The position numbers and the translations under genes were made by a program. 64,000 nt of DNA from Chondrilla cf. caribensis (taxonomy: Eukaryota; Porifera; Demospongiae; Chondrillida; Chondrillidae), in NCBI GenBank assembly GCA_964020155.1, contig OZ026548.1, positions 4,699,897 to 4,763,896 of the forward strand. The letters are read 5' to 3'. Positions 21,721-59,345 of this stretch are shown piece after piece. Position 1 is the stretch's first letter. Each line of letters starts with the position of its first letter. A model generated the notes under the pieces. It was given only the letters and a program-made list of their open reading frames with translations. It was not told the origin of the DNA and searched no databases.

Positions 21721-23605
21721 CTACTTGGTGCACACAACGCAGGACACTTCCCTTATCTGCTCATATGGTGGACACTGCATTCCAAATGCACAGGCCACTT
21801 GGACGTGGTACAACTGGGCTCCATTGTCATTTGCAGCTTCACCTGGAACCACTTCTGCATCAAAATCAACACACACAAATGTGCTTGCTCCTGGGTGGTT
21901 GAAATGTCCGGTCATCAGCCAGCCAAAGTACTCGGTGGTCCACCCGGAAGGACATTCATAGGTTCCTGGTATCATGAGGTGCTTTGAACGATCACAAACT
22001 TCACACACAGCACACGGAACGTTCTGATCATCCCTCCCACGGGTGAGTGCTTGGTTAGGCGATATTTCGTATTCTGTCCCGTACATGAAAGCCCAACCAC
22101 TATTGGTTGTGGTTGATGCTGCATGATGCTTGCCCTGCGAAGTGAGGCAGACAAAGTCAGATGCTCCACCGTTGTGATTATAAAAGCCCGAAGCAGCTCT
22201 TCCTTCATAGACACGGCTGGTTCCATCGACATCAGGACAAGAACTGTTACCCCAACGAACATAGGTTACTCCAGGAACTGTCAATATTGAATATATTGGA
22301 TAGTAACAGCATTATTGATATGTACATAAGCCCTTTATTGTAATACAAGTAGTATTCCTGCAAGATTGATTAGTACAGTCATGCACATATGGGTAGTGTA
22401 TAATAAATCTCTTATGAAACAATTCCAGGCCGATAATTACGATAAAGTTAAACAAATGCAAGTTAAACCAAAGCAAACTCTTGGAGAGCTAAGGATAGTG
22501 TACACCATGTCAATGTGATAAAATGTGTCTCTGTGCGTCAACTAGTGCTGCTTACCTGGAATACAATCAGACTCCCCCTTGGAATTATCGACGATGGTGA
22601 CAGTCGTACTTCCTCTAGATCTAGAGGTAACACTCCCCCTCAGAGAGCTCCCCCTCACAGTGCAGACCAAGGTCTCCTCTCCCTCACATTTCTTATCGTC
22701 CACAATAGGTAAAGTAAAGCTTTGTGTCTTTCTGGTGCGAGTGAATCTCACAGAGATGGAACTGGTGTCAAAATCTACCCCATCTGTGGCTGAAACACCT
22801 GAGCACCCGACAAGGACTGTAAATTGTCTTCGAACATTCCCAGAAACCCTCAGCCCTATGTCAACACTTCCTGTATGTTCCTGAGCCGTCACAGAAGTCC
22901 GTTGGAAAGAAATGGTAACTGATGGATTGGTTGAAAAACAGCGTGATTATAATCATATGACGTAGATTTCTGTAAGCAATTAACTATTAACACACGTGCT
23001 ACCAGGTGACAATTGTTTGGATTAAGTGATATGTCTTTTGTAGTATGTGTTTGCTAGTAATAAATTACACATACACTACTGATACTGTGTATTTTGTAAA
23101 CCATGTGAGGTGTGGTTGCAACTGTACCTGGTGATTGTGTGAGGTGTACACACATACTGTACCTGGTGGTTGTGTGAGGTGTACACACATACTGTACCTG
23201 GTGATTGTGTGAGGTGTACACACATACTGTACCTGGTGGTTGTGTGAGGTGTACACACATACTGTACCTGGTGGTTGTGTGAGGTGTACACACATACTGT
23301 ACCTTGTGGTTGTGTGAGGTGTACACACATACTGTACCTTGTGGTTGTGTGAGGTGTACACACATACTGTACCTGGTGGTTGTGTGAGGTGTGCACACAT
23401 ACTGTACCTGGTGGTTGTGTGAGGTGTACACACATACTGTACCTGGTGGTTGTGTGAGGTGTACACACATACTGTACCTGGTGGTTGTGTGAGGTGTACA
23501 CACATACTGTACCTGGTGGTTGTGTGAGGTGTACACACATACTGTACCTTGTGCTGCAACAAGTGTAGCTGATCCAATAATCACCAATGTTAGTTTGATG
23601 AACAT
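21721..23605 (-). CDS. Secreted Calx-beta + C4-like domain protein, copy B
   Basis: 325 residues from three exons, all phase 1: signal peptide MFIKLTLVIIGSATLVAAQ (23605-23548), Calx-beta (22918-22556), C4-like domain (22277-21721). The Calx-beta exon shows DGVDFDTSSISVRFT, then LPIVDDKKCEGEETLVCTV and TVTIVDNS, the usual Calx-beta strands with an acidic turn. The C4 exon runs from TYVRWGNSSCPDVDG to VSCVVCTK with ten Cys. Unlike copies D-G it lacks the Pro/Thr linker, as does copy C. The first ATG after the TATA box (23605) is chosen as start; the extra codons upstream are not ATG. Probably matrix or cell-surface associated. Intron 1 holds about 12 units of the 35-bp repeat. Confidence 0.88.
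23110..23550. repeat. 35-bp minisatellite, copy B intron 1 (about 12 units)
   Basis: On the coding strand each unit is GTACAGTATGTGTGTACACC then TCACACAACCACCAG. The first unit starts exactly at the exon 1 donor. No stop in any of the three coding-strand frames. Confidence 0.95.
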
Positions 23606-23711
23606 GTCCAAGGAGATCTCTCACAGCTATTGACGCAGTAGTAGTTCTGATGATATCCACTCAGTTATACACTCCAGCTGCAGGTTGCTGGAGAATGGTT
23701 GACATCTGTTC

Positions 23712-23718
23712 TTTTATA
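23712..23718 (-). promoter_or_regulatory. TATA box of copy B
   Basis: TATAAAAGAAC on the minus strand about 110 bp upstream of the ATG, followed by the conserved CAACCATTCTCCAGCAACCT block. Found at the same place in copies C-H (33167, 39705, 47029, 53151, 59449, 60550). Confidence 0.75.
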
Positions 23719-23754
23719 GACTACCCTATCTACCCTATCTCAAATGTTCACATG

Positions 23755-23956
23755 CACACAATGCAATTTGTTCATAGATTTAGCTCTGTGCATGTACATT
23801 CCATTTGAAGATTCGTACTGAAAATATGTTTTCAGTTTCACTTTACTAAATTTGATTTTGCTGCAATCACCTTGTCACACATTTTTGTCTAATGTACTGT
23901 AGATACCTCCACTTACTTATCTAAACTATAATGTACATGTGAGTCCATGAATATGC

Positions 23957-24025
<69 letters not shown>

Positions 24026-25060
24026 ACTTATGCCTATGCCTAATATTGTACGTACATGTTAATTATATTGATACACTACAGTGTCCTGTGTGTTATAATA
24101 TATTATAAAAGTATGTCTGTATGTTATTGTATTCAAACATGATTCAACTGTGAGTAGTGGATTATTATCTACTGATTTATCACCCTATGTAAACGTCGCC
24201 GCTTGACCGTGAATCTTCAATTCTTCCCAAACAGGGCAAGGCTTGTCTTCCATGTTTCCATGGTTACCTTCTAGGCATCAAAAAGAGTCACTCAGTAGAA
24301 AGGACAGTTATTCTTAGAGAATTTTAATCAGAATAGTTAATATTCATGTCTTTCCCAATGTGCTATGAGGGGTGGTATTCTCTGAAAAGGCCTTATAGCA
24401 CATTGACAAAGAAATGAATATTACCCATTCGGGTCACAATCCTCTATGATTCAACCATTTTTATGAATATAATTCTTATGACCTCTCTTGATCCAACATA
24501 TGTGCATGATGTACATGTTTGTGACATTCTTCTACTGATCATGCAAGTGTGTTGCTGTTCCTACTTCTGGCTTACTTGGTGGACATGATAGACATGTATA
24601 TCCTCAGACTACTGCATCCACTCACTCTTCACAGGCAATACATTGCCACTGAACACTGTTTGATTTTGTACTTTGAGAGTATCTGACATGCTAAAAGGAA
24701 TCTCAAGCTTCCACATTAGATCTATTGAGTGGCTACTCAGCTCCGTACAGTGGGAGTGGTTTCTGGTAAGGTCAACTAGGTGGTGGGTTATCCGGTGTAC
24801 TTTACGGTGATTAATTGATTAGTCAATTGGTTGCTATGCACCAGTAATCCATATGAAAAAAGCTGCTGATACCCCTGTGTGTAAAAGTACAGCACTGTTA
24901 GTGTATTATGCTGTAGTTATAACATTGGATTCCACAGTATACACAACAAGCTACAAGCATGCAGGGTACATAGTGTGGTGGAGTTTTTACTGTATCTTTC
25001 CACCCACTGCACACTTAACATATGAATGTATGTTTCCTCCTATTCCTCTCTACTGATATT
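23755..25060. other. Intergenic with (TG)n and a hairpin
   Basis: No gene seen. Holds a (TG)n tract at 23960-24022, an imperfect hairpin at 24338-24423 and AT-rich sequence. Confidence 0.5.
24338..24423. ncRNA. Pre-miRNA-like imperfect hairpin
   Basis: 29-nt arms with three mismatches (TAATATTCATGTCTTTCCCA.. against ..CACATTGACAAAGAAATG) and a loop of 28 nt. Size and mismatch pattern suit a miRNA precursor, but a decayed MITE would look the same. Confidence 0.25.
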
Positions 25061-25061
25061 T

Positions 25062-25270
25062 TACCAGATAGTGGAAAATTTTCGCAGGACAAAGTCTTGT
25101 GGATTTTGCAGTTGGCCCAACATCCGCGAAAGTAAAATCCGTGAATTAGGCATAGTTGTGTGTGTATTAATACTGTATACTCATTCTGCATGGTAAGCCA
25201 GAATTTGCGAAATTTTATGTGGGAATTTTCATTTTTGGAGCCATCCACAAAAATTTCCCACTATACGGTA
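25062..25270. mobile_element. MITE, CCGTATAGCGGGAAA family (diverged)
   Basis: Ends TACCAGATAGTGGAAAATT and AAATTTCCCACTATACGGTA. TA at both ends fits a TA target duplication. Other copies: 28049-28410, 35238-35452, 35991-36174, 44243-44443. Confidence 0.7.
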
Positions 25271-25429
25271 TAATGCAGGTATGTATTTAAGGAATTTGGT
25301 CTTTGTGACACATACAGTGGCATGACACTTTGCTATGACAAAATTACTGCTTGTACAATGTAATCTGGTATTTCTAGACAAACCTCTGTTTTTTGTATTG
25401 TAGGGACTTATATACAATAATTATTTTCG

Positions 25430-25700
25430 CCAATATTTCCATTTCGACTTCCGAATTGACATTATTTCCATTTCGATTTCCGATATTATAATATATAATA
25501 TGCAATTCTACGCATAACAGCAATAGTAAATTTATATTGCGCGAAAAAAGATGGCCGATTTTCAAAACGCCGAAAATCAGAAATTGGGTGAATGCAACGG
25601 ATCCGCCGAACGTAATATCTCCAGCGAAGATTTTTCTAAACCAAAAAAGACCCTCAAGTAATTCGAGTGCGGGAGGCGTCATCCCGCGAGTTTTTAACTT
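25430..25700. mobile_element. Partial long-TIR element (CAAGTAATTCGAGT)
   Basis: Contains GATGGCCGATTTTCAAAACG, TTTTTCTAAACC and CAAGTAATTCGAGTGCGGGA followed by CCCGCGAGTTTTTAACTT, matching one arm of the 41551-42630 element. Confidence 0.55.
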
Positions 25701-25719
25701 AACGTAAGCTACTTGTTCA

Positions 25720-26800
25720 TTTTATCCGTCCCGTACTATAGATGTACAGTATATCTGTGTATTGTCTTTAGGGTACATTTCAACTGTTTCATATGTTGGC
25801 TTTCACGCGAAAACCTGACTTTGTGCTTTTTATTGGAAACAATGAGATACTGCACTGCAGCCAGTGCATGATATTTGCGGGATACGCACATCTACTGCAT
25901 GCTGCAGTGTGGAACACAATATTTCCATTCCCACTGCGAGATTTTGCACTGAGAATGTGGCTTTAATGATATTCATTACCTAATTACCACAAGTACTGTT
26001 AAAATTCATCTTTACACTGCATTTTTGTTATGTATTTGAACTTGGGCAAGTTGTCTTAGTATGTCCTTCCTTTTACATGGGGAACAAAGACGGCATTTGG
26101 TACCAGCGGAATTTTCAGTGGTGGAATTACTGCTGACACCAACTAATGGTTCACTAAGGGCTGGATTTTTACTGTGTTTGTTTTGGACATGTAATATTGG
26201 TGGAGAGATTAGTTAAGTAGAAGGGGTATATCTTCTCACACAAGTACCACTTTTAAACCAAGTCCAAGCCTTTTGGCAAGAGTTTGTTGGGGTGGTCACT
26301 TGAAATTAGGCTCCCTCCCTCGAGGATTGTAAATTGTCATTCCCGTAAGACTGGGAATACTCACAAGTGAACACAGCACCTGAATGATGATGGCCGAATT
26401 GTAAAGCATAAAAGAAGCTTGTTTTGGTATACTTTAGGAGAAAAGGAGATTGTCTTCAAGCTTCTGAAACCTTGGACACAATTTATGATAGCTTCATACG
26501 AGAAATACCCGGCCTAATACTGATAGGTTGTTGGTGAATCGTCAGTATCGTCGTATTCTCCTTAATGCAATTGTTCTTAGAGCTTCTCTGAAGCCAGCAC
26601 TAAGCAAAATGAGTTGCTACGACCCATACTACAGTCACAATGCATTTCTCTTGCAGCAGTGAATCCCCCAGACAATATTGTATGACAGTCACACACATAG
26701 GAGACAGAATACGTATGACTGCATTTATCCTGTGAATATATACTTTATTTCCATTTCCTGAAAATATACACATCCACCCAAACCATGCTTTTGTGTGGAA
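25720..26800. other. Non-coding spacer
   Basis: No exon or recognisable element beyond scattered AT-rich repeats. Confidence 0.4.
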
Positions 26801-27144
26801 ACCCACGTATGTATTCTCAAGTACTGTACTGTATGTTTTGTATTTAGTGCATAACGTCATAGGCTATACCTTCAACTTGTTTGTTTGTGATTCTGGAGGG
26901 TTGATCCTCACGCACACACACAAGCGGGTGCCTCAATTTGTAGTCTCCAGGCTTCCTCTCACTCCACTCTGTGCCTGTCACAACACCTCACAGTAGGAAA
27001 ACTACATACCTTTAAGGTTTCAATGAAGAGGTGGTAGCACCACATGCAGTTCCTTGGAATTGTTTTGGATTTTACGGGGGGCTTCAGTCCTCAATGTGCC
27101 TCACCTGTAATACCAACCTTGGGATATATCTGGGTACACAACAT

Positions 27145-27188
27145 GATTGACCAGTTGCTTAACAGACCTGTTAAGCAACTGGTCAATC
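27145..27188. repeat. Perfect palindrome, 21-bp arms, in the repeat block
   Basis: GATTGACCAGTTGCTTAACA-G, loop AC, then the reverse complement. A diverged version is at 29097-29140 and a broken one near 30250-30390. Confidence 0.9.
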
Positions 27189-28048
27189 AATACACCTTAC
27201 ATCATGTATGTATGCATGAATGTATCATATGGATTATACTAGCAGAACTGCCCACCTGAAGTATGAATGTATTGGGATGGTTTGAAGTTGTTGGAACGTG
27301 AAATAATGATTGTTGTGTTTTGATTACCAAATGACATCCCACACAGCATCCTAATAGCTGTAATTGTCAAACCTTCGTTATGCGAATACAAATATCCATT
27401 TTGTTGTCACCAGCAAAAGGGATTACATATAACAAAGAAAGTAATGAAGTAGTTCCGGTGGGTAAAGAATAATATTATCTCCATGAGAACAGTGTAAAGG
27501 TAGAATGACACTTTCAGTAGCTCGTTGATTCCTAGTAACTGAGCATTAGTAGTGTTCTGTGTCAAAGTTTTTGATGTGTGCACAACTTGACTGCATGTCA
27601 CGTATGTATTCTCAAGGAACATGTGTTGTGCATATCATACGTATCTGATGCACAATATTAATGTCATAGGCTATACCTTTGACCTGTTTGTTTGTGATTC
27701 TGGAGGGTTGGTCCTCATGTGCACACACTCCTCAATTTGTAGTCTCCAGGCTTCATCTCACTCCACTCTGTGCCTGTCACAACACCTCACAGTAGGAAAA
27801 CTACATACCTTTAAGGTTTCAATGAAGAGGTGGTAGCACCATATGCAGTTCCTTGGAATTGTTTTGGATTTGAAGGAGCTTCAGTCCTCAATGTGTCTCA
27901 CCTGTAATAGCAACCTTAGGATATATCTGGGTACATAGTATGATTGACCTGTAATACCAACCTTAGGATGTATCTTAGCCATAATTGTCAAACCTTTGTT
28001 ATGTGAATACAAGTATCCATTTTGCTGTCACCAGCAAAGTGGATTACG

Positions 28049-30579: not shown

Positions 30580-30582
<3 letters not shown>

Positions 30583-30671
<89 letters not shown>

Positions 30672-30772: not shown

Positions 30773-31864
30773 CGCCTCAATTTGTAGTCCCCAGGTTTCC
30801 TCTCACTCCACTCTGTGCCTGTCACAACACCTCACAGTAGGAAAACTACATACCTTTCAATGAAGAGGTGGTAGCACCATGTATGTGTATATAAAGCTCC
30901 TTGTAATTGTTAGCATAGTACTGTATTGATCTTATATAATTATACTCAAACTCTCTTTCATCACTTATACACCTAAATGTAGTAACATTTGTATAATCTC
31001 TGATAGGCCACCTTCCCTGTTCAGTATGTGTCGTTAACGCATGTGTTCTGCACTTCATTATAATACGGATGCAATAATTCTGCATAGCACTGATCATTAT
31101 GGATGCAGTATTCAATATTGTTAATTGTGTACTTCCTATGTAATGGCCTAACCTACACTACATGTTATTGAGTGAGTTTTCTCTATTCTACTTGTTATAT
31201 GAGAACTGGTGCTCCTGTTCCAACTGCTGCTCTACTTGGTGCACACAACACAGGACACTTCCCTATCCTGTTCATATGGTGGACACTGTATTCCAGTTGG
31301 ACAGGCCACTTGGACGTGGTACAAATGAGCTCCATCGTTATTTGCAGCTTCACCTGCAACCACTTCTGCATCAAAATCAACACACACAAATGTGCTTGCT
31401 CCTGGGTGGTTGAAATGTCCAGTCATCAGCCAGCCAGAGTACTCAGTGGTCCACCCGGAAGGACATTCACAGGTTCCTGGTATCATGAGGTGCTTAAAAC
31501 AATCATCAACTTCACACACGCACATGGAACGTTCTGATCATGCCTCCCACGGGTGAGTGCTTGGTTATCTGATATGTCATATTCTGTCCCGTACAAAACA
31601 GCATTACGGCTATTGGTGGTGGTTGAATTTGGATGATACTTCCCCTGTGAGATAAGGCAGACAAAGTCAGATGCTCCACCACTGTTACCAAAATAGCCTG
31701 AAGCAGCTCTGCCTTCATAGACACGACTGGTCCCATCAACATCAGGACAAGTACTGTTGCCCCAGCGAACATAGGTTACTCCAGGAACTGTCAATATTGA
31801 ATATATTGATAGTAACAGCATTATAGATATGTACATAAACCCTTTATTGTAATACAAGCAGTAT

Positions 31865-32168: not shown

Positions 32169-32895
32169 TCAAAGTATTCTTGGAAGAATGCAGTCATGTA
32201 ACTATGGGTAATACATAGGAATCCTCGATGAAACAATTCCTATAATTTTGACAATGTTAAACAACTCAGAGTAGCATGTGCCATGAGAATGTATTGAAAT
32301 GTTCCTCTGTACACTATTCGACACCAATGCTGCTTACCTGGATTGCAGTCAGCCTCATCCTCAGAACTATCAATGATGGTAACAGTCACTCTTCTGGTTC
32401 TCCCAGGTCTACGGTTTCTATTGTAAGAGCTAGCCCTCACCTCGCAGACCAACGTCTCCTCACCCTCACATTCCTCATCGTCCACTATAGATAAAGTAAA
32501 TTTGGGCGTCTTCTTTTTAGCAGTGAATGTCACAGTGATGGGACGTGCGTCGAAATCATCACTTGTAGCTGATCCAGCTGAACAAACCACAGTGACTGTA
32601 AATTGCTTAAATTTCCCGGAAGCTCTCAGAGGTATTTCAATTTTTCCTTTATATTCCTGAACCGTCTCAGAAGACTTCAGGAAGGAGATGCTAACTGATA
32701 GATTTGTTGAAAAATGGCAGGATTATAATGAGATGTAGATTTCTGTAAGCAATTAACTATAACACACATAGGCTACCAGGTGACAATTGTTTGGATTAAG
32801 AATGTCCTTTGTAGTCTTCTATAATTATACACCCACACAGGGACTTGCCAAATCTGTACATGTTGTGAACCATAGGAGATGTGATTGTGTACTGC

Positions 32896-33006
32896 ACCTG
32901 ACAGTTATGTGAGGTGTACACACATACTGTACCTGGTGGTTGTGTGAGGTGTACACACATACTGTACCTGGTGGTTGTGTGAGGTGTACACACATACTGT
33001 ACCTTG
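32896..33006. repeat. 35-bp minisatellite, copy C intron 1 (about 3 units)
   Basis: Two perfect units plus one decayed unit (GCACCTGACAGTTATGTG). Shortest array in the family. Confidence 0.95.
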
Positions 33007-33166
33007 TGCTGCAACAAGTGTAGCTGATCCAATAATCACCAATGCTAGTTTGATGAACATGTCCAAGGAGATCTCTCACAGCTATTGACACAGTAGTAGT
33101 TCTGATGATATCCACTCAGTTATATGCTCAGGCTGCAGGTTGCTGGAGAATGGTTGACATCTGTTC

Positions 33167-37628: not shown

Positions 37629-39597
37629 CTACTTGGTGCACACAACGCAGGACACTTCCCTTATCTGCTCATATGGTGGACACTGCATTCCATATGCACA
37701 GGCCACTTGCACGTGGTACAAAAGGGCTCCGTTGTTATTTGCAACTTGTCCTTCAACCAATTCTGCATTAAAATCAATACACACAAATGTGCTTGCTCCT
37801 GGGTGGTTGAAATGTCCAGTCATCAGCCAGCCAAAGTACTCAGTGGTCCACCCGGAAGGACATTCATAGGTTCCTGGTATCATGAGGTGCTTTGAACGAT
37901 TGTCAACTTCACACACAGCACATGGAACGTTATGATCATGCCTCCCGCGGGTGAGTGCTTGGTTAGGCGCTATTTCGAATTCTGTCCCGTACATGTAACC
38001 CAGACCACTATTGGTTGTGGTTGATGTTGGATGATACTTGCCCTTTGAAGTGAGGCAGACAAAGTCGGATGGTCCACCGTTGTGATTGTAATAGCCTGAA
38101 GCAGCTCTGCCTTCATAGACACGGCTGGTTCCATCGACATCAGGACAAGTAGTGTTGCCCCAGCGAACATAAGTGTGTCCTCCAGTACTTGGTTTTGGTG
38201 GTGGTGTTGTTGGTGGACGGGTCACTAGATAGATAGACAATAGCATGATTGTTATACAGGTGGTATGTTTAATGGACTAAATCTTACACCAGATTTTAGA
38301 TTTATATACAGTACATCTATAATCATGATATTCTGTGTTGCAAAATCAAAGGTCTCTTGTACAGCAGTTAACACTCAATGACCTACTGCTCACCTCGACA
38401 ATCATCCTCTCTCTTGGAGTTGTCTATGATGCTGACAGTTACTTTTCCTCTAGCACTAGCGAATACAGGCAAAGAGCTCCTCTTCACATTACAAGCGAAG
38501 GTCTCCCTTTCCTCACAATCATCGTCATCCACTACAGGTATGTTTATTGTTTGTTCCTTCTCGGCGGGAGTGAACCTCACAGTAATGGGACTGGCATTGA
38601 AGTCATCCCCGGCTGTGGCTGGACGCCGACCTGTACTCGCACACACCACAATGACGTTGAATGGTGAACTGAAATCTCCAACAGCTTTTATCTTCACAGC
38701 AGCTTTCTCGGTATATTCTTGAGCCTTTGCAGAAGATTTTGAGAACAAGATGGCAACACTTGGACCTGTTAATAATAGCAAAGTATGTATACCACATCAG
38801 TACAATAATATTTATGTGATGCACACGTATACTGTACCTGGTGGTTGTGTGAGATGTACACACATACTGTACCTGGTGGTTGTGTGAGGTGTACACACAT
38901 ACTGTACCTGGTGGTTGTGTGAGGTGTACACACATACTGTACCTGGTGGTTGTGTGAGGTGTACACACATACTGTACCTGGTGGTTGTGTGAGGTGTACA
39001 CACATACTGTACCTGGTGGTTGTGTGAGGTGTACACACATACTGTACCTTGTGGTTGTGTGAGGTGTACACACATACTGTACCTGGTGGTTGTGTGAGGT
39101 GTACACACATACTGTACCTTGTGGTTGTGTGAGGTGTACACACATACTGTACCTGGTGGTTGTGTGAGGTGTACACACATACTGTACCTGGTGGTTGTGT
39201 GAGATGTACACACATACTGTACCTTGTGGTTGTGTGAGGTGTACACACATACTGTACCTGGTGGTTGTGTGAGGTGTACACACATACTGTACCTGGTGGT
39301 TGTGTGAGGTGTACACACATACTGTACCTGGTGGTTGTGTGAGGTGTACACACATACTGTACCTGGTGGTTGTGTGAGATGTACACACATACTGTACCTG
39401 GTGGTTGTGTGAGGCGTACACACATACTGTACCTGGTGGTTGTGTGAGGTGTACACACATACTGTACCTTGTGGTTATGTGAGGTGTACACACATACTGT
39501 ACCTGGTGGTTGTGTGAGGTGTACACACACATACTGTACCTTGTGCTGCAACAAGTGTAGCTGATCCAATAATCACCAATGCTAGTTTGATGAACAT
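37629..39597 (-). CDS. Secreted Calx-beta + C4-like domain protein, copy D
   Basis: 341 residues: signal peptide MFIKLALVIIGSATLVAAQ (39597-39540), Calx-beta exon (38765-38394; DDFNASPITVRFT, then NIPVVDDDDCEERETFAC and TVSIIDNSKREDDC), C4 exon (38224-37629) that starts with a Pro/Thr linker (TRPPTTPPPKP) and then TYVRWGNTTCPDVDG to VSCVVCTK with ten Cys. All introns are phase 1, with AG and GT at each edge. The linker looks like an O-glycosylated hinge between the two domains. Intron 1 carries about 20 repeat units. Confidence 0.9.
38830..39540. repeat. 35-bp minisatellite, copy D intron 1 (about 20 units)
   Basis: Mostly identical units with G/T (CCAG or CAAG junction) and G/A variants. 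Open in all three coding-strand frames. Confidence 0.95.
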
Positions 39598-42456: not shown

Positions 42457-42789
42457 TCTAAGATGGCCAATTTCAAATGCTGACAATTTGAAATTGGGCT
42501 AGAATTCATACACAGAAGCACCGCTGAACATAATAACTTCAGCAAAGGTTCTTCTGAACCTAAGAAAGACGTCCAAATAATTTGAATGGGGGGGCGGCAG
42601 CCCCACGAGTTTTTGAACTCGAATTACTTGTTTGTTACAGTTACGCGTGGAAACACATACGTAATATGTATATATGACGAGCGTAACATACCGGAAATCA
42701 AAAGTTTGAAGGAATAATTATAGGGGTTGCCTGTGGTACTCGTATTGCATATACTAAATCTATATAATATCCTGTAACCCATGTGAGGT

Positions 42790-43218
42790 GTGATATTGCA
42801 TACTGTACCTGGTGGTTGTGTGAGGTGTGATATTGCATACTGTACCTGGTGGTTGTGTGAGGTGTACACACATACTGTACCTTGTGGTTGTGTGAGGTGT
42901 ACACACATACTGTACCTGGTGGTTATGTGAGGTGTACACACATACTGTACCTTGTGGTTGTGTGAGGTGTACACACATACTGTACCTGGTGGTTATGTGA
43001 GGTGTACACACATACTGTACCTGGTGGTTATGTGAGGTGTACACACATACTGTACCTGGTGGTTGTGTGAGGTGTACACACATACTGTACCTGGTGGTTG
43101 TGTGAGGTGTACACACATACTGTACCTGGTGGTTGTGTGAGGTGTACACACATACTGTACCTTGTGCTGCAACAAGTGTAGCTGATCCAATAATCACCAA
43201 TGCTAGTTTGATGAACAT
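42790..43218 (-). pseudogene. Orphan signal-peptide exon with 35-bp array (D')
   Basis: The 58-bp exon (43218-43161) is intact, encoding MFIKLALVIIGSATLVAAQ, with the donor and about 10 repeat units. Homology to full genes stops just above the ATG (after ATTGACACAGTA), so the TATA region is missing, and no Calx-beta or C4 exon follows before copy D. Likely a dead fragment. It could only act as an alternative first exon for copy D, in the right phase, if it has another promoter. Confidence 0.75.
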
Positions 43219-43779: not shown

Positions 43780-44048
43780 CATTATAATAGCATGCTTGTT
43801 ATACAGGTAGTATGTTTAATGGACAAAATCTTACACCAGATTTTAATTAGACTCATGTACATTACTTGTACATCTGAATATTTTATGTTGCAAAACTATA
43901 GATAAAGCTCTCTTGTACAGCATTTAACTATCAATGACTTATTTTCAATACTGCTCACCTCGACAATCATCCTCTCTCTTGGAGTTGTCTATGATGCTGA
44001 CAGTTACTTTTCCTCTAGCACTAGCGAATTCAGGCAAAGACCTCCCTC
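43780..44048 (-). pseudogene. Truncated Calx-beta exon plus intron 2 fragment
   Basis: Matches the 3' end of the Calx-beta exon (GACAATCATCCTCTCTCTTG.., about 43958-44048) and the adjoining intron 2 (AGTATGTTTAATGGAC). Cut off abruptly at CTCAATTTTGAATTGTGCAT. A second relic with the same breakpoint is at 50505-50771. Confidence 0.75.
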
Positions 44049-44242
44049 AATTTTGAATTGTGCATGCTACCTCATTTTACTGACCTCAATCACATCAGTG
44101 GATGTATGTACCCATGGATATGTATTCATTCCATATCCATTGATATACGTATGTATTGTGTGTATCCTTGAAATCTGAGGAGCAAATATGGACGTTATCC
44201 GTACACAAACACCCAATACATATGCATGCATACAGTACTTAC

Positions 44243-44918: not shown

Positions 44919-46921
44919 CTACTTGGTGCACACAACGCAGGACACTTCCCTTATCTGCTCATATGGTGGGCACTGCATTCCATATGCACAGGCCACTTGG
45001 ACGTGGTACAAAAGGGCTCCGTTGTTATTTGCAACTTGTTCTTCAACCAATTCTGCATCAAAATCAATACACACAAATGTGCTTGCTCCTGGGTGGTTGT
45101 AATGTCCAGTCATCAGCCAGCCAAAGTACTCGGTGGTCCACCCGGAAGGACATTCATAGGTTCCTGGTATCATGAGGTGCTTTGAACGATTGTCAACTTC
45201 ACACACAGCACATGGAACGTTATGATCATGCCTCCCACGGGTGAGTGCTTGGTTAGGTGCTATTTCGAATTCTGTCCCATACATGTAAGCCAGACCACTA
45301 TTGGTTGTGGTTGATGCAGAATGATACTTCCCCTGTGAAGTGAGGCAGATAAAGTCAGATGCTCCACCGTTGTGATTGTAATAGCCTGAAGCAGCTCTGC
45401 CTTCATAGACACGACTGGTCCCATCGACATCAGGACAAGTAGTGTTGCCCCAGCGAACATACGTTTGTCCTCCAGGACATGGTTTTGGTGGTGGTGTTGT
45501 TGGGGGACGTGTCACTAGATAGATAGACAATAGCATGATTGTTATGCATGTAGTATGTTTAATGGACTATAAATCTTACACCAGATTTTAGATTCATATA
45601 CAGTCATGTATAAACATAATATTCTGTGTTGTAAAATCAAAGGTCTCTTGTACTGCAGTTAACACTCAATGACATACTGCTCACCTCGACAATCATCCTC
45701 TCTCTTGGAGTTGTCTATGATGCTGACAGTTACTTTTCCTCTAGCATTAGCGAATGGAGGCAAAGAGCTCCTCCTCACATTACAAACGAAGGTCTCCCTT
45801 TCCTCACAATCATCGTCATTCACTACAGGTATGTTTATTGTTTGTTCCTTCTCGGTGGGAGTGAACCTCACCGTAATGGGACTGGCATTGAAATCATCCC
45901 CGGCTGTGGCTGGACGACGACCTGTACTCGTGCACACCACAATGACGTTAAATGCTGAACTGAAATCTCCAACAGCTTTTATCTTCACAGCAGCTTTCTC
46001 GGTATATTCTTGAGCCTTTGCAGAAGACTTTGAGAACAAGATGGCAACACTTGGACCTGTTAATGATAGCAATCATCATTAAAGTATGAATACCACATCA
46101 GTACAATATCATCTGGCATGCATTTGGGACCTGGTGGTTGTGTGAGGTGTACACATACTGTACCTGATGGTTGTGTGAGGTGTACACACATACTGTACCT
46201 GGTGGTTGTGTGAGGTGTACACACATACTGTACCTGGTGGTTGTGTGAGGTGTACACACATACTGTACCTGGTGGTTGTGTGAGGTGTGCACACATACTG
46301 TACCTGGTGGTTGTGTGAGATGTACACACATACTGTACCTGGTGGTTGTGTGAGGTGTACACACATACTGTACCTTGTGGTTGTGTGAGGTGTACACACA
46401 TACTGTACCTGGTGGTTGTGTGAGGTGTGCACACATACTGTACCTGGTGGTTGTGTGAGATGTACACACATACTGTACCTTGTGGTTGTGTGAGGTGTAC
46501 ACACATACTGTACCTTGTGGTTGTGTGAGGTGTACACACATACTGTACCTGGTGGTTGTGTGAGGTGTACACACATACTGTACCTGGTGGTTGTGTGAGA
46601 TGTACACACATACTGTACCTGGTGGTTGTGTGAGGTGTACACACATACTGTACCTGGTGGTTGTGTGAGATGTACACACATACTGTACCTGGTGGTTGTG
46701 TGAGGTGTACACACATACTGTACCTGGTGGTTGTGTGAGGTGTACACACATACTGTACCTTGTGGTTGTGTGAGGTGTACACACATACTGTACCTGGTGG
46801 TTGTGTGAGGTGTACACACATACTGTACCTGGTGGTTGTGTGAGGCGTACACACATACTGTACCTTGTGCTGCAACAAGTGTAGCTGATCCAATAATCAC
46901 CAATGCTAGTTTGATGAACAT
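44919..46921 (-). CDS. Secreted Calx-beta + C4-like domain protein, copy E
   Basis: 341 residues: signal peptide (46921-46864), Calx-beta (46056-45685), Pro/Thr linker plus C4 domain (45514-44919). Exon lengths 58, 372 and 596 are identical to copy D and all splice sites are intact. Differs from D at a modest number of residues (for example CPGGQTYVRWG for STGGHTYVRWG, adding a Cys in the linker). Intron 1 has about 21 repeat units, the longest array. Secreted, presumably matrix-associated. Confidence 0.9.
46130..46866. repeat. 35-bp minisatellite, copy E intron 1 (about 21 units)
   Basis: Longest array. One unit near 46146 is 2 bp short (33 bp), which locally shifts the open frames. Confidence 0.95.
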
Positions 46922-47999: not shown

Positions 48000-48535
48000 A
48001 CGTGTGTGGCATGTATAGTCATGCCTATGTGTTTGTCTTCATGTACAGTATGTTGTATTAATGTAGGTGCCTAGTACACACCTTTCATCACGAAGGCAAT
48101 TTTGTAGTATTCAGTAAATATGTTTTCTCCAAGAATTTGATGTACAATCAACGTACGTAGTAACTTATTATACTACTTGCTCTTGCGGGACATTTTTGGA
48201 CAAGTAATTTGAGTTGAATTCGAACTCGTGGGACTCCTGTATGTCCCTCGCACTTGGGTGCCTCTGTAATGTTTAGAAGAACTTTCGATGAAGATATCGG
48301 CCCCTGTGCTCGAATTTAATTTATAGCCCAATTTCTAATTCTCGGTGTTTCACAATCAGCCGTCTTTTCCGCACAATATAATTTATAATTGAATTTTTGT
48401 TACAGTTACGCATAGAAACACAATATATGTATATAATAAGTGTAACATACCCGAAGTCAAAATTTTGAAGAAATAATTATAGGGGTTGCCTGTGGTACTA
48501 GTATTGCATACACTAAATCTATATATCCTGTAAAT
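47080..48535. repeat. Segmental duplicate of 39750-42780 and 53200-54240
   Basis: Shares GTGTTCTAATGATCATTGGA, CATTTCAGTGATTGGGTCTT, TCATCATGAAGG.. and TGGTACACCTGGATCTGGTC in the same order, with a (TG)n tract at 47954-47998 and a partial long-TIR element (48201-48400). No gene seen. Confidence 0.75.
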
Positions 48536-48544
48536 CATGTGAGG

Positions 48545-48902
48545 TGTGATTGCATATACTGTACCTGATGGTTGTGTGAGGAGTACACACATCCTGTACC
48601 TGGTGGTTGTGTGAGGTGTACACACATACTGTACCTGGTGGTTGTGTGAGGTGTACACACATACTGTACCTGGTGGTTGTGTGAGGTGTACACACATACT
48701 GTACCTGGTGGTTGTGTGAGGTGTACACACATACTGTACCTTGTGGTTGTGTGAGGTGTACACACATACTGTACCTGGTGGTTGTGTGAGGTGTGCACAC
48801 ATACTGTACCTGGTGGTTGTGTGAGGTGTACATACATACTGTACCTTGTGCTGCAACAAGTGTAGCTGATCCAATAATCACCAATGCTAGTTTGATGAAC
48901 AT
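48545..48902 (-). pseudogene. Orphan signal-peptide exon with 35-bp array (E')
   Basis: Exon 48902-48845 intact, followed by about 8 repeat units, then the same non-coding end as D'. Lacks the TATA region and any Calx-beta/C4 exon. Same breakpoints as D', so both come from one event copied by segmental duplication. Confidence 0.75.
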
Positions 48903-50500: not shown

Positions 50501-50504
50501 TCAT

Positions 50505-51462: not shown

Positions 51463-53044
51463 CTACTTGGTGCACACAACGCAGGACACTTCCCTTCTCT
51501 CATCATATGGTGGACACGGTATTCCATATCTACAGTCCACTTCGACGTGGTACAAAACGGCTCCATCGTTATTTGCAGCATCATCTGGAACCACTTCTGC
51601 ATTGAAGTCAACACACACGAATGTGCTAGCTCCATGGTACTCATAATGTCCAGTCATCAGCCAGCCAAAATACTCGGTGGTCCACCCGGAAGGACATTCA
51701 TAGGTTCCCGGTATCATGATCTGTGCAGAACGGGTGGCATGGCACACTGCACATGGAGCGTTACGATTATGTCTGTCACGAGTGAGTGCTTGGTTAGGCG
51801 CTATTTCGTATTCTGTCCCGTACATGAAAGCCCAACCTCTATTGGTTGTGGTTGATGCTGGATGATGCTTCCCCTGCGAAGTGAGGCAGACAAAGTCAGA
51901 TGCTCCACCGTGGTGATTGTAAAAGCCTGAAGCAGCTCTGCCTTCATAGACACGACTGGTCCCATCGACATCAGGACAAGAACTGTTACCCCAGCGAACA
52001 TAGGCGACTCCTCCGGTACTTGGTTTTGGTGGTGGTGTTGTTGGTGGACGTGTCACTAGATAATTTATAAAATTATGCGTAAAGGCATGATTGTAATACA
52101 GATAAGTCATTTAATGGACTAAAGTTTAATTAGACCACATTTTAGATTATGGTGAATATATGTAATCGAGATAGTAAATTATACGTAGCTCTATATATTA
52201 TACAGCAACACTCAATGACCTACTCCTCACCTCGACAATCATCCTCTCTCTTGGAGTTGTCTATGATGCTGACAGTTACTTTTCCTCTAGCATTAGCAAA
52301 TACAGGTAAAGAGCTCCTCTTCACATTACAAGCGAAGGTCTCCCTTTCCTCACAATCATCATCATCCACTACAGGTATGTTTATTGTTTGTTCCTTCTCG
52401 GTGGGAGTGAACCTCACAGTAATGGCACTGGCGTTGAAATCATCCCCGGCTGTGGCTGGACGACGACCTGTACCCTTGCACAACACAATGACGTTGAATG
52501 GTGAACTGAAATCTCCAACAGCTTTTATCTTCACAGCAGCTTTCTCGGTATATTCTTGAGCCTTTGCAGAAGACTTTGAGAACAAGACCTCAACATTTGG
52601 ACCTGTTAATAATAGCAATCATCGTTAAAGTATGAACATCAGTACAATATCATTTGGCATGCATTCGGGACCTGGTGGTTGTGTGAGGTGTACACACATA
52701 CTGTACCTGGTGGTTGTGTGAGGTGTACACACATACTGTACCTGGTGGTTGTGTGAGGTGTACACACATACTGTACCTGGTGGTTGTGTGAGGTGTACAC
52801 ACATACTGTACCTGGTGGTTGTGTGAGGTGTACACACATACTGTACCTGGTGGTTGTGTGAGGTGTACACACATACTGTACCTGGTGGTTGTGTGAGGTG
52901 TACACACATACTGTACCTTGTGGTTGTGTGAGGTGTACACACATACTGTACCTGGTGGTTGTGTGAGGTGTACACACATACTGTACCTTGTGCTGCAACA
53001 AGTGTAGCTGATCCAATAATCACCAATGCTAGTTTGATGAACAT
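51463..53044 (-). CDS. Secreted Calx-beta + C4-like domain protein, copy F
   Basis: 340 residues: signal peptide (53044-52987), Calx-beta (52602-52231), linker plus C4 domain (52055-51463). All junctions phase 1. The C4 part is the most diverged of the intact set: NAPCAVCHATRSAQIMIPGT where siblings have NVPCAVCEV..SKHLMIPGT, and EVDCRYGIPCPPYDERREVS near the end. The ten Cys are kept, so the fold is probably retained while surface residues change. Nine repeat units in intron 1. Confidence 0.9.
52672..52989. repeat. 35-bp minisatellite, copy F intron 1 (about 9 units)
   Basis: The most homogeneous array: nearly all units identical. Confidence 0.95.
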
Positions 53045-53150: not shown

Positions 53151-53157
53151 TTTTATA
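53151..53157 (-). promoter_or_regulatory. TATA box of copy F
   Basis: TATAAAAGAGC, same distance from the ATG as siblings. Confidence 0.65.
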
Positions 53158-53638
53158 CTAGTCCACTCACCGTAATATGTACGTGTGCATCGGTAGTTGG
53201 CAAAGTTGCAGAGGCCTCCAAGGGACCATCTTGTGGTTGTTCCAGTACCAGGTGTTCTAATGATCATTGGACAGCACCTTGTAATAATACACAGCTTTGT
53301 CAACTTCTTTTGTTACAGGGATGACCTTAAAAGCATGATCACATGAACACATGAACCTGTCTGTACTATGCCCTTTGAAGCTCCTGGTTCAGTTATGACC
53401 TCATTTCAGTGACTGGGTCTTGTTCCAATTTATTGTTAACTTTGTTTGTTTGTGTGTGTGTGTGTGTGTGTTTGTGTGTGTGCACATATGGATATGTGAG
53501 TGTGTGCCCATATGCAAAATTTTTTGATGTGTGTATATAAGCATAATAAAAACATTTAACAATGAAAAAGGATGTAGGAATGACAAGCAAAAAAGGGAAA
53601 GAACAAGGTAGGGATGAATGGAATGAGAACACCGTCGG

Positions 53639-53794
53639 AGTGAGCAGCATGTCGGAATGAGAAGACTGTCGGAATATAACAATCCCTATATCAACAGCTG
53701 CAGACACTATACTGTGTATTGCAAAGCAATCACTGCTGTTGATATAGGGATTGTTATATTCCGACAGTCTTCTCATTCCGACATGCTGCTCACT
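53639..53794. repeat. Perfect hairpin with 59-bp arms
   Basis: Arm AGTGAGCAGCATGTCGGAAT.. to ATATCAACAG, 38-nt loop, then the exact reverse complement with no mismatch. Absent from the homologous segments at 40.9 and 47.55 kb. Left flank holds further GTCGGARTGAG words. Confidence 0.95.
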
Positions 53795-54240
53795 AGGACC
53801 TTTTTCAAAAACTAAGCTTCATGGACGAATGTTATTCCATTGTAATTGACACAATAGACCATATTACATCACTTCCAACTATTGTCACAGCTGGTACACC
53901 TGGATCTGGTCATTGTTTGGATGAAGAGGTGATACTTCTCATGGACTACAGTGTACACATCAGCTGAAATTATCATGTACTAATGGATTTGATAAGGCTT
54001 CAAGCTCAAATTATCATGTACTAATGGATTTGATAAGGCTTCAAGCTCAAATTATCATGTACTAATGGATTTGATAAGGCTTCAATCCCCCCCTAGGAAA
54101 TCTCGCCTATAGTAAATTGAAGCTATACTCTACTTTAAATTTGTATGGTAATCAAGTTTCTTGCTTTCAAGCCATATCACAGTATAAGACCACTCCCACA
54201 TAGTATACAAACACTCAATTGTCTGTGTAGCTATATATAG

Positions 54241-54280
54241 GTGTGTGTGTGTGTGGTTGTGTGTGTGTGTGTATGTGTGG

Positions 54281-54348
<68 letters not shown>

Positions 54349-54368
54349 CTGTGTGTGTGTATGTGTGG

Positions 54369-54414
<46 letters not shown>

Positions 54415-54430
54415 GTGTGTGTGTGTGCGC
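54241..54430. repeat. Long (TG)n microsatellite
   Basis: About 190 bp with GGTTG and GGCTG interruptions, expanded compared with its counterparts at 41280 and 47954. Confidence 0.95.
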
Positions 54431-54465
54431 CCATGTGTTTGTATGCGCGTGTACTGTATGCTTTA

Positions 54466-54620
54466 CAGTGAATACTCGTTAACCCACCACAATTTGTTTT
54501 CAAAGAATATGATAGGTTAAGTGGATATTCATTGTTACTTGTACATTATATTGGCACCAGGAAATTGTGGTGGATTGGAAGGTTTGGCAGATGAAGTGGT
54601 GGCAGATTAATGAGAAATAT
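54466..54620. mobile_element. MITE, CAGTGAATACTCGTTAA copy
   Basis: Diverged second copy of the 18710-18883 element: CAGTGAATACTCGTTAACCC to GCAGATTAATGAGAAATAT. Confidence 0.6.
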
Positions 54621-55091
54621 ATGCTCACACAGGATACTTTTGGAACAAGTAATTCTAGTTAAACAAGTAACTTGAGTTGACTTTACTTGAATGAATAGCT
54701 ATGTGTATAGGTGTATGACATTTTGTGTATATGTGTTAAGTGGGTTGGTATGTGTAATGTGCATGTGTGAGTGAGTGTACTGTAAGTTCTTCGACATGTA
54801 TTCATGCACATAGAAATAATTATTTGTATATGTACACCAAAATAGGGAGGAACACATAGTTGCCAATCCTTGAAAATGGGCTAGATGGACACTTACGTAT
54901 CTACACCCATGTGCTGTGGCCAAAATGGCTCAATGGATATATGCGCAGGTTTAGTATCATTGATTGTGCTTGATAAATAGTTGTGAAAGTAGTCTAGAAC
55001 TTTGTTAAATATCACTGAAGGTAATATCTCGGTTTACTATCGGCCAGTTTATGACGTCATATTGCAAATGGCTGTCAAACACAAGGTCCGC

Positions 55092-55154
55092 TAGTCTGGC
55101 TGGCCAGACCTAATCCGCGGGGGCGGTTATTCTAGGGTCTGGCCAGCCAGACTA
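55092..55154. repeat. Palindrome, perfect 19-bp arms
   Basis: TAGTCTGGCTGGCCAGACC, 25-nt GC-rich loop, then the inverse. Each arm also contains CTGGCCAG. Confidence 0.85.
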
Positions 55155-55645
55155 CACTCCGCTAATCCATAGGTCGAGAAAAAACCGGGATAGGAAACGA
55201 ATTCGCGTTATCCTATACTGAAGTATGGGATGACGTCATCCTTCCTTGGGGGTAGCTAGGTAACCGTTGTCAAGGGACAATGGAAAGGTACTTTTTGACC
55301 TACTGTGGCCAAGCCCACACGCTAGTTGCAGAAATCTCCCCTCGAAGCAATGCCGGTGATGATAGGCTACGAGACGAATCGCTTTTTCGCCGCAATAATG
55401 GTACAAAACCATCGAACTATAACATTGTGTAAGTTTTGTACCTATTGCCTTGCGCTCGAAACCTAATCGGACGCTTTTGTTCATTGTGATTGTGTACGGT
55501 ACGTAGGTACGTTGCTTGCAGCTGTTAAATTAGTAATAACGTCGCTCGTTTTCTCGCTGGTTAATCTGTGCTTGGAAAAATGCCATAGATGATAACTCCC
55601 TACAACGTGATTCCGACGCAAAGGACATTGTTACACACTGCCGAA

Positions 55646-55858
55646 TAGCCTTGAGAGGTCATTAGTGAACGTTGTCAGCAGCTGTTGTACTTCTTCTCTG
55701 GCTGCTGCCTCAATAAACCAGTTTACTTCGGCTGTTTGTCTTTTTCCGCGGTTAGAAAAAGGGTTTGATTGAATTCCTTTTTGAAGGGATACTACAAAGC
55801 GCATCAATAACTCGAAAGAATCGTCACGAACGGAGGATAACGCTATCGACTCGGCCAT
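55646..55858 (-). CDS. Small open frame inside the long transposon, unknown
   Basis: Starts MAESIALSSVRDDSFELLMR, then EAAAREEVQQLLTTFTND and SRLFGS, with a possible donor at GGCAGT-GTGTAA. Balanced, helix-like composition. No transposase motif or family recognised; could be exon 1 of a captured or transposon-encoded gene. Confidence 0.3.
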
Positions 55859-56439
55859 TTTCGTGGCAACTTCACAGGTTCCGGCGAATCTGTGACATGC
55901 ATGTTTTGAGGGATAATTCTACGTTGTGCTCCATAAGAAAGTAATTGTGAGTTTTCAACTCGTTGAACTGATGAATTGACGACGAATAACCTACGTTACT
56001 TTCCAAGACCTTTAAAACTGTCGATCAAGGTACCGAACACTGCCGAACGAAAATCGAACAGGCTAAATATTCATTCTACTAGAGAATGACGAGTGGCAAT
56101 CAAACTGTTCGATAGAATCGAAACGCTAATTTATCGATTATGATGGCACTTCTAAAGACGATTTGAATGAAGACAATCGGATTTGCATTTCACCAATCCG
56201 TGCCGGACATGTTACCACTGGAAAAAACCGTGCCATATCCCGGATGATTCGGAACAGTTGGCAACTATGTTCACTGAGGTTCGGAATATCTATGATCCAT
56301 CATACAACTGTCTCCAATTGTGGGTCACAAGGTTTTAACCAATATCATCATAGTGTTCATGGTTGCCATAGAACCAGTACTGTTATAATATTATGCAACA
56401 ATTTTCTGAATAACTGTAAAAACCTTTGACTAAGCAATG

Positions 56440-56800
56440 TATACTAATTTTTAAGTTTATATTTGATATGTTACAAAAGTTGATGTTGCTTATTCGATTA
56501 TTATTACACATCAACAGAGGCTATTCTGGTTAAGACTTGGACACTGGGCAGTATGGCATAGAACTCCACTTGCCGTCAGGCATTGGCACCCTCAGAATTT
56601 GGCATTTCATGTGCGATACAGCCCTTGTGTCGCATCGTGATAGTGTTTTGGAGAGATTCCTCCGCCTATTAGTATATGTTCATCTCAGGCTACAGTCTGC
56701 TCTACTTGTGTCTGTCACTGCACCCAGCTGCAAGTGAACTCAGTCTGATGTTCTTTGTTCAAACAACAGGAGTAGTTATGTCAGCTATTGACCAGACCCC
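56440..56800. repeat. Dispersed repeat shared with 36360-36840
   Basis: See the partner copy. Same order of shared blocks, slightly shorter. Confidence 0.6.
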
Positions 56801-57640
56801 TTACACAGAAATTCTATTTAAAGACATTTTACGTACTTGCTCTCAAACTATATAATATGTACATCTAATACAGACGTACATCACCATGTGATAGTGTATG
56901 TAATTCATTGAATCCACCAGTAATAGTGGAATATTCCACAAGTGGTTTCACAGTGTACACAATTTTATCTTTCTGGTGTACATGTTCAACATAGTGCTAC
57001 TTACTAAGCAAATTTTACTGTATACCAATCAGACCAATACAAAATATTCTTGCATCAATACACTGTTTACACTTTCAAAGATAGGAACATATATGTGATC
57101 AATTGCAGTATGATGTACTCACAGTTGCAAAAGAAACCATATTATACCATAAACCATATAAGTCAAGAATACATATACTGCGTACATTATACATGTAAGT
57201 ACATATGCATATGTATGGCACTGTTTGTTATTATGTTTATGGATTCATGCATGTGTATGTATATACAATACGCATTATGTATATATGTATAACCCTGTTA
57301 GCATTACACACATAATATTTATGATTATGTATTATATACATATTATTATGATCATAATGTATATACATATTATATTATATATGCATATTATTATGTATTA
57401 TATATATGCATATTATCATGTATTATAAATACATATTATTATCATAATGTATATATATTATATGCATTATTATTCTGTATTATATATATATATATATTAT
57501 ATATTTGTCTACTGTATGTGTGTGTCAAATTTTCACGTGTATTCTGGACATCTTGGTAATATAATTATCATCATGTCATAATAATTGTACATGACATAGA
57601 TCAAATGGTTAGTAATCTACTATGAAGTACTGAATATATG
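56801..57640. other. AT-rich spacer
   Basis: No gene. TATATA and CATATTATTATG-type simple repeats at 57300-57500. The end (57540-57640) matches the 3' flank of copies E and F. Confidence 0.5.
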
Positions 57641-57742
57641 TACTCACTACATAATGGCCTAACCTACACTACTTGTTAGTGAGTGAGTTTTCTCTATTCT
57701 ACTTGTTATATGAGAACTGGTGCTCCTGTTCCAACTGCTGCT

Positions 57743-59345
57743 CTACTTGGTGCACACAACGCAGGACACTTCCTTTCTTCGATCGTATGGTGGACACTGT
57801 ATTCCATATGAACAGGCCGTTTGAACGTGGTACAAAAGGGCTCCATTGTCATTTGCAGCTTCACCTGGAACCACTCCTGCATTGAAGTCAACACACACGA
57901 ATGTGCTAGCTCCATGATTTCTGAAATAACTAGTCATCAGCCAGCCAAAATACTCGGTGGTCCATCCGGAAGGACATTCATAGGTTCCCGGTATCATGAG
58001 GTGTTTTGAACGAGTCATGACTTCACACACTGCACATGGAACGTTATCATCATCTATGTCAGTGGTGAGTGCTTGGTTATTTTGTATTTCGTATTCTGTC
58101 CCATACATGTAAGCCCAACCACTATTAGTTGTAGTTGATGCTGGATGATACTTGCCCTGTGAGATAAGGCAGACGAAGTCAGATGCTCCACCGTTGTGAT
58201 TATAATAACCCGAAACAGCTCTTCCTTCATAGACACGACTGGTTCCATCGACATCAGGACAAGAACTGTTGCCCCAACGAACATAAGTGTGTCCTCCAGT
58301 ACTTGGTTTTGGTGGTGGTGTTGTTGGTGGACTTGTCACTAGATACGTAGATAGACAATAGCATGATTGTTATACAGGTGGTATGTTTAATGAACTAAAT
58401 CTTACATCAGATTATAGATTTTAATACAGTGCATATAATCGTGATATTCTGTGTTGTAAAATCAAAGGTCCATTGTATAGTTGCACAATAGTAACACTCA
58501 ATGGCATACTGCTCACCTCGACAATCATCCTCTCTCTTGGAGTTGTCTATGATGCTGACAGTTACTTTTCCTCTAGCACTAGCGAATACAGGCAAAGAGC
58601 TCCTCCTCACATTACATGCGAAGGTCTCCCTTTCCTCACAATCATCATCATCCACTACAGGTATGTTTATTGTCTTTACCTTCTCAGTAGGAGTGAATCT
58701 CACAGTAATGGGACTGGCATTGAAGTCATCCCCGGCTGTGGCTGGACGACTACCTGAACTCGCACACACCACAATGACGTTAAATGGTGAACTGAAATCT
58801 CCAACAGCTTTTATCTGCACAGCAGCTTTCTCAGTATATTCTTGAGCCTTTGCAGAATTCTTAGAGAACAAGATGGCAACACTTGGACCTGTTAATAATA
58901 GCAATCATTGTTAAAGTATGAATACCACATCAGTGAAATAATATTTATACGTGTGATGCACATATACTGTACCTGGCGGTTGTGTGAGGTGTACACACAT
59001 ACTGTACCTGGTGGTTGTGTGAGGTGTACATGCATACTGTACCTGATGGTTGTGTGAGGTGTACACACATACTGTACCTGGTGGTTGTGTGAGGTGTACA
59101 CACATACTGTACCTGGTGGTTGTGTGAGGTGTACACACATACTGTACCTGGTGGTTGTGTGAGGTGTACACACATACTGTACCTGGTGGTTGTGTGAGGT
59201 GTACACACATACTGTACCTTGTGGTTGTGTGAGGTGTACACACATACTGTACCTGGTGGTTGTGTGAGGTGTACACACATACTGTACCTTGTGCTGCAAC
59301 AAGTGTAGCTGATCCAATAATCACCAATGCTAATTTGATGAACAT
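57743..59345 (-). CDS. Secreted Calx-beta + C4-like domain protein, copy G
   Basis: 341 residues: signal peptide (59345-59288), Calx-beta (58888-58517), linker plus C4 domain (58338-57743), exon lengths identical to D and E. The C4 part differs from siblings around EIQNNQALTTDIDDDNVPC and in YFRNHGASTFVCVDF. The acidic Calx-beta turn (VVDDDDCEERE) is kept. All sites intact. About 9 repeat units in intron 1, one with CGCCAG. Confidence 0.9.
58967..59290. repeat. 35-bp minisatellite, copy G intron 1 (about 9 units)
   Basis: Units as elsewhere, slightly more diverged at the far end (CCGCCAG and ATGCATAC variants). Confidence 0.95.

Follow-up and report, generated by a model that had tools for sequence, protein, structure and literature searches.

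Tandem arrays that carry a splice junction in every unit have been described in human UBC and VCX3A, where they act as tandem dual-specific splice sites (Duan et al. 2024, PMC10809524). There, one AGGT is present per repeat unit, unit number varies between copies, and splicing can hide expansions; the UBC units are 228 nt long, coding and in frame, and their use as both donor and acceptor was shown. Recursive splice sites, or ratchet points, share the AG joined to GT and are described mostly for long introns, with a working acceptor (PMC6110457, PMC8605326); a wider range of intron sizes for recursive splicing is also reported (PMC10156609). Tandem duplication that makes new splice-site copies is known from the gain of an intron in potato RdRp (PMC4974935), and 5′ splice sites with bulged nucleotides have been described (Roca et al. 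2012, as cited in PMC9311317). Here, we analyzed a 64,000-nt stretch of DNA (hereafter, the window) from the sponge Chondrilla cf. caribensis, which belongs to contig C3 of a 137-Mb genome in 37 contigs and contains eight arrays of one 35-bp unit, each beginning at the donor of a signal-peptide exon.

Ordinary intronic minisatellites repeat a short unit at high identity, with diverged units at their edges and a copy number that differs between loci. The sponge arrays share all of these traits, but start at, and include, the end of an exon. Relative to UBC, the sponge units are 35 nt long, which is not a multiple of 3, and occupy a predicted intron with the acceptor outside the array and a U-poor tract before each AG. 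In potato RdRp the duplication creates an intron, whereas here an existing donor junction appears to have been multiplied inside one. As in bulged 5′ splice sites, the motif GTA[C]AGTAT can pair with U1 by bulging out one base, but here the site is repeated 3–21 times and its use is a prediction. A donor-junction minisatellite was not found described in the literature searched, which comprised titles and the starts of abstracts of open-licence papers. We consider it probable that the arrays are minisatellites of this kind that are simply spliced out.

The arrays comprise 94 units of GTACAGTATGTGTGTACACCTCACACAACCACCAG on the minus strand between positions 23128 and 59287. In coordinate order they hold 12, 3, 20, 10–11, 21, 8–9, 9, and 9 units, the ranges reflecting counts without and with the diverged 37-nt end units; this bears out the number of arrays and the unit counts given in a first-pass annotation of the window. 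Tandem Repeats Finder returned a period of 35 with 92–98% matches for all eight, and both the head-to-tail arrangement of a unit in the 10–100 bp range and a copy number that differs between loci, from 3 to 21 units, are those of a minisatellite. Six arrays precede Calx-beta and C4 exons, in the genes designated G1 (array at 58973–59287, 9 units directly behind exon 1), G2 (52672–52986, 9 units), G3 (46131–46863, 21 units, one of 33 nt), G4 (38838–39539, 20 units, the first of 37 nt), G5 (32898–33002, 3 units), and G6 (23128–23547, 12 units). The remaining two, S1 (48565–48844, 8 regular units, with a diverged 37-nt unit continuing to 48528) and S2 (42809–43160, 10 units, one of 37 nt, with a second 37-nt unit continuing to 42772), consist of a solo exon 1 and its array, with no Calx-beta or C4 exon of their own. 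According to the unit parser, 89 of the 94 units are exactly 35 nt long, and all 94 start with GT and end in AG; the parser itself demanded that start and end, and a listing of units free of this rule gave the same units. The core GTACAGTAT is kept in 93/94 units. Every array stands directly behind the same exon-1 end, GCACAAG/GTACAG (the slash marks the end of the exon), such that the proposed start at the exon 1 donor and the AG directly before GT in every unit were likewise recovered. The pattern CCACCAGGTACAG had 92 matches in the 137-Mb genome versus four for its reversed control, and thus the arrays are not a product of chance. Elsewhere, the same consensus recurs in a 21-unit array on contig C23 (L035:4382-5114), in sense orientation and with GTGCAG and GTGAAG variants. 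This array lies about 1 kb inside an intron of 3 kb, and its host gene, possibly HSPA12-like, matches HSP70 weakly (below the Pfam cut-off). Because the C23 array lies mid-intron, the repeat can persist without bordering an exon.

The origin of the AG/GT can be traced to exon 1, a 58-nt signal-peptide exon, ATG...GCAGCACAAG/GTACAG. Its last 6 nt, CACAAG, also end 15 of the 94 units, and the exon-unit match ends at the seventh base (0/94), from which it follows that the repeat includes the exon end. Whenever the exon before a donor ends in AG, duplication of the junction will place AG/GT in every unit, and no acceptor has to evolve; judged from the letters themselves, the AG/GT is a duplicated donor junction and not evidence of an evolved acceptor. 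CACCAG, the commoner unit end, pairs better with U1 than the CACAAG of the exon. We propose that the final 6 nt of exon 1 and about the first 29 nt of intron 1 were duplicated in tandem, as their sequence identity suggests, so that each unit would be a copy of the exon/intron junction. The array would then lie within intron 1 and be excised with it, in most cases by joining the first donor to the exon-2 acceptor, giving a product with signal peptide, Calx-beta, and C4, a structure to which frame and homology point. Each AG would be a copy of the exon end and would not work as an acceptor, and the extra donors would mostly be tolerated by-products. Gene conversion or unequal exchange, with which the identity patterns agree, may keep the array and exon 1 alike among paralogues.

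Removal of the whole array is consistent with the gene models. Joining in phase 1 gives continuous proteins in five of the six genes (341, 340, 341, 341, and 325 aa for G1–G4 and G6), while G5 is frameshifted later, and its model ends at 239 aa because of the frameshift in its C4 exon. Exon 1 ends in phase 1, and the exon-2 acceptors, AACAG/GTCC in G1–G4 and, as we read the sequence, ATCAG/TT in G5 and G6, both accept that phase; the exon coordinates imply first introns of 399, 384, 807, 774, 308, and 629 nt in G1 through G6. Moreover, the homologous sequence P0002, an uninterrupted 339-aa frame with 54% identity over 96% of the query (longest contig 1524 bp), connects its signal peptide to Calx-beta and has no array peptide between the two. 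P0002 presumably represents a spliced transcript, and its species may lack the array.

Computed pairing indicates that U1 can recognize every junction. Bulging of C+4 gives GTA[C]AGTAT an uninterrupted pairing with U1, at strengths within the range of other donors in this genome. Using the canonical U1 end, the first donor reached −9.4 kcal/mol and the unit consensus −11.2; 70 of the 86 internal units paired better than the first donor (mostly at −11.2), 15 were equal to it, and one reached −8.0. Shuffled units paired as well in 26/2000 cases, and among other GT sites in the window 48/3000 reached −9.4 and 7/3000 reached −11.2. Metazoan U1 starts with ATACTTACCTG. The eight U1 snRNA matches of this genome (L075–L082) begin TAACTTACCTGG at the first position of the model, and the energies were for this reason recomputed with three versions of the sponge's own U1 end. 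The first donor then ranged from −7.0 to −7.3 and the internal CAG form from −8.8 to −12.6, compared with −5.8 to −14.4 for 14 listed reference sites, one of which (another, chance occurrence of CAGGTGGGG) does not represent a resolved donor. For the three versions, 2, 24, and 19 of 1000 shuffles were as good, and 5, 40, and 37 of 3000 other GT sites were as good as the internal form. Judged by predicted pairing, the internal copies are normal donors, and the first one falls toward the weak end of the normal range; the unit variants of the C23 array keep their U1 pairing as well (−11.1 to −11.3).

Several observations nevertheless weigh against simple removal from the first donor. In the ordinary register, GTACAG is without the G at +5, unlike all eight resolved chaperonin-gene donors (8/18 junctions, the other 10 being ambiguous or without a candidate, and ranked in a way that favours consensus donors); the +5 G is also present in the donor of the HSP70-like gene (GAG/GTGAGA) and in the donors of intron 2 (GTGAGC, GTGAGG, or GTAAGC). 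With the three versions of the own U1 end, 231, 122, and 115 of 3000 other GT sites matched the strength of the first donor and, since most internal units are stronger than it, its exclusive use is not predicted by pairing alone. Across the arrays of the window, 1/11 positions of the donor core are variable versus 11/24 in the rest of the unit (one-sided P = 0.036, the units not being independent), a lower variability that could reflect selection acting on each of the units. For the C23 array, the corresponding values are 2/11 and 2/24, so that there the core is not less variable. Finally, the distance from the first donor to the end of the array is a multiple of 3 in five of the six genes (315, 315, 702, 105, and 420 nt; 733 in G3), a regularity with a binomial probability of about 0.02, calculated post hoc, that is unexplained. 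Two of these five arrays contain a stop.

In an alternative that we consider fairly unlikely, several internal donors would really be used, and the length of the array would adjust the yield of productive message or contribute a segment of variable size. Two thirds of the possible numbers of retained units (k) would shift the frame, leading to decay or truncation, and k = 3, 6, 9 and so on would add blocks of 35 residues. In its favour are the stronger pairing of the internal donors, which has the same direction with the own U1 end, the near-universal retention of GTACAGTAT, and the array lengths divisible by 3. A stop-free, in-frame donor is also available after k = 0, 3, 6, and 9 units in G1 and G2 (the G2 site at k = 9 reads GTCCCG), 0, 3 ... 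18 in G3, and 0, 3 ... 12 in G6. The same reading encounters difficulties in G4 and G5, which permit only k = 0, because the signal-peptide frame is closed in unit 2 and unit 3, respectively, and in the missing array segment of P0002. Thus, the first-pass statements that no frame has a stop and that every third unit restores the frame hold for the consensus unit, which is open in all frames, and for G1, G2, G3, and G6, respectively, but fail for the 6/94 units with a stop triplet and for G4 and G5. An open unit is, in any case, ordinary: dinucleotide shuffles were likewise open in all frames in 768/2000 cases, and mononucleotide shuffles in 2850/20000. Of 105 possible substitutions 14 make a stop, and among the 13 distinct ones seen one does so, in five units; stop-making changes are not clearly avoided. 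We consequently rejected the stop-free unit as evidence of coding and, given the stops in G4 and G5, a coding array as a rule, and the Thr/His/Val-rich segment of variable length that had been suggested gained no positive support. Judged by motif and frame, alternative donor use of internal units is credible and possible. A specific version of it, in which the 3–21 near-identical bulge-register donors compete and unit number, differing between paralogues and perhaps individuals, sets the ratio of messages, is in our view unlikely; under competition, the first donor would yield the normal secreted protein and internal ones would yield frame-shifted or 35-residue-extended messages.

Another candidate donor, GTATGT, lies 5 nt further on, has a +5 G, and occurs as an in-frame, stop-free copy in each of the six genes (in the third unit; the second in G4). 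Its U1 pairing amounts to only −2.0 to −4.4 kcal/mol and its use would add a segment that P0002 lacks, and we set it aside as a minor possibility.

A role at the DNA level, in which the array would mark a boundary for recombination or act as a regulatory element within the intron, would address why exon 2 diverges while the promoter region, 5′UTR, and exon 1 stay alike. Specifically, positions −171 to −59 are 94–100% identical among G1–G6, and exon 1 is 97–100% identical, compared with 61–64% between exon 2 of G5 or G6 and that of G1–G4 (70% between G5 and G6). Moreover, BLAST matches (≥60 nt, E ≤ 1e-8) between G1 and G5 or G6 start at −168/−171 and stop near the end of the shorter array, after which there are none until exon 3. 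Yet exon 3 is 79–96% identical (only 305 nt of G5 compared) and the 100 nt behind the stop are 98–100% identical among G1–G4 and G6, such that the 3′ end is homogenized too, with no array there; the corresponding G5 value (45–47%) is unusable because its stop is displaced. In addition, the intron of the HSP70-like gene on C23 holds the same unit, and no such border is known there. We regard a DNA-level role as doubtful. Among two-state informative sites, those that group G5 with G6 number 54/66 in exon 2 and 0/7 in the 5′ part, a distribution that fits conversion of the gene ends. The diverged Calx-beta exons of G5 and G6 (32338–32694 and 22556–22918) lie between much more similar gene ends and could be diversifying exons.

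Recursive or dual-specific splicing, in which the units would be acceptor and donor at once and the array would be shortened stepwise in the RNA with the junction regenerated at each step, has the AG joined to GT in all 94 units in its favour, as well as the precedent of human UBC, a tandem AGGT array in which use of a weak acceptor is reported (PMC10809524). However, the 17 nt before the unit CAG contain one U, versus 7–9 in 12 inferred acceptors (six of intron 1 and six of intron 2), while total pyrimidines do not differ (10/17 versus 8–12/17), leaving U content as the only difference. Since a strong donor can rescue a weak acceptor in UBC, the U-poor tract makes acceptor use less likely but still conceivable. 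One 35-nt unit is also shorter than any resolved intron (the shortest being 58 and 64 nt), the AG is accounted for as a copied exon end, and the first introns, at 308–807 nt, are not the long hosts typical of ratchet points, although length is not a strict criterion. Nor is any of them a multiple of 35, as would be expected for a UBC-type intron, further introns within the array being possible. Stepwise shortening is highly improbable, and ratchet splicing, which had been raised initially, is unlikely given the copied AG, the U-poor tract, and the short introns. A structured-RNA role was dismissed, as both stretches tested fold worse than shuffles (G1 exon 1 with its array, z = +1.85; the G2 array, z = +2.44); no known RNA family was detected in the window at gathering scores.

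The six genes, all on the minus strand, comprise a signal-peptide exon, a Calx-beta exon, and an exon for a short-chain collagen C4-like domain. In G1, these are at 59288–59345 (ending in phase 1, CAA G/), 58517–58888, and 57743–58338; in G2 at 52987–53044, 52231–52602, and 51463–52055; in G3 at 46864–46921, 45685–46056, and 44919–45514; in G4 at 39540–39597, 38394–38765, and 37629–38224; in G5 at 33003–33060, 32338–32694 (Calx-beta-like), and 31232–31787 (frameshifted); and in G6 at 23548–23605, 22556–22918, and 21721–22277. Calx-beta was identified as PF03160 in G1, G3, and G6, the genes that the scan covered, and by homology in the others. The C4-like domain takes its name from homologues: within the best 120 of 196 hits, those with an informative name are 'short-chain collagen C4(-like)' proteins from Amphimedon, Branchiostoma, and Lingula. 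No solved structure matches it by sequence (E ≤ 1). From its sequence, G5 is a probable pseudogene. The gene with the shortest array is also the one that carries a frameshifted C4 exon.

The solo copies of exon 1 in S1 (48845–48902) and S2 (43161–43218), also on the minus strand, are identical to exon 1 of G2 at 58/58 nt. The two loci share upstream sequence and match the genes only from about −98 (48528–48902 and 42772–43218). A degenerate exon-1 copy on the same strand (60380–60437) has an interrupted frame and just one unit, diverged, behind it. When the G1 Calx-beta exon was searched against the whole genome, 16 matches resulted: the six genes, a broken fragment within the window, and, on other contigs, nine matches that were weaker (E 5e-7 to 8e-4); the fragment (43951–44079) has two stops and lies between G3 and S2. 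Exon 1 with one unit as the query placed exon 1 at no fewer than nine sites, the eight arrays and the degenerate copy, a lower bound from 10 scored candidates. The C4 domain, in contrast, had at least 136 matches in the genome (window included), and so most C4 genes seem to be without exon 1 and the array seems to belong to a small group of genes. The initial proposal that every Calx-beta/C4 gene has an array was accordingly too broad, and only six of the eight arrays precede both exons. The C4 matches are largely clustered, on contigs C3, C12, C13, C21 and others, with many open frames of 250–290 residues.

Related frames were found in the protein collection. Array frames follow the same exon on other contigs in P0122, P0124, and P0125, with 3/20 residues of the signal peptide changed in P0124, and array frames run into Calx-beta in P0018 and P0127. 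P0123, which comes from a contig of a different length, equals the G4 frame over its last 117 residues and differs at 4/180, all inside the array. The downstream parts of P0124 and P0125 are similar to those of S1 and S2. Additionally, the window contains a second tandem repeat (10076–10357; period 16, about 18 copies) and a long plus-strand open frame with a von Willebrand factor A domain (61532–63577).

The arrays bear on how a donor is chosen. The choice of 5′ splice sites is otherwise studied with designed duplications. If many of the sponge donors are used, eight loci with 3–21 evenly spaced, near-identical donors would constitute a natural dose series for this choice. If only the first is used, the cell can bypass as many as 20 copies that are equally good or better and spaced 35 nt apart, which would constrain models of donor choice. 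For gene predictors and readers alike, the arrays are a caution that AG/GT repeats are not necessarily recursive splice sites. Either way, a donor junction can seed a minisatellite.

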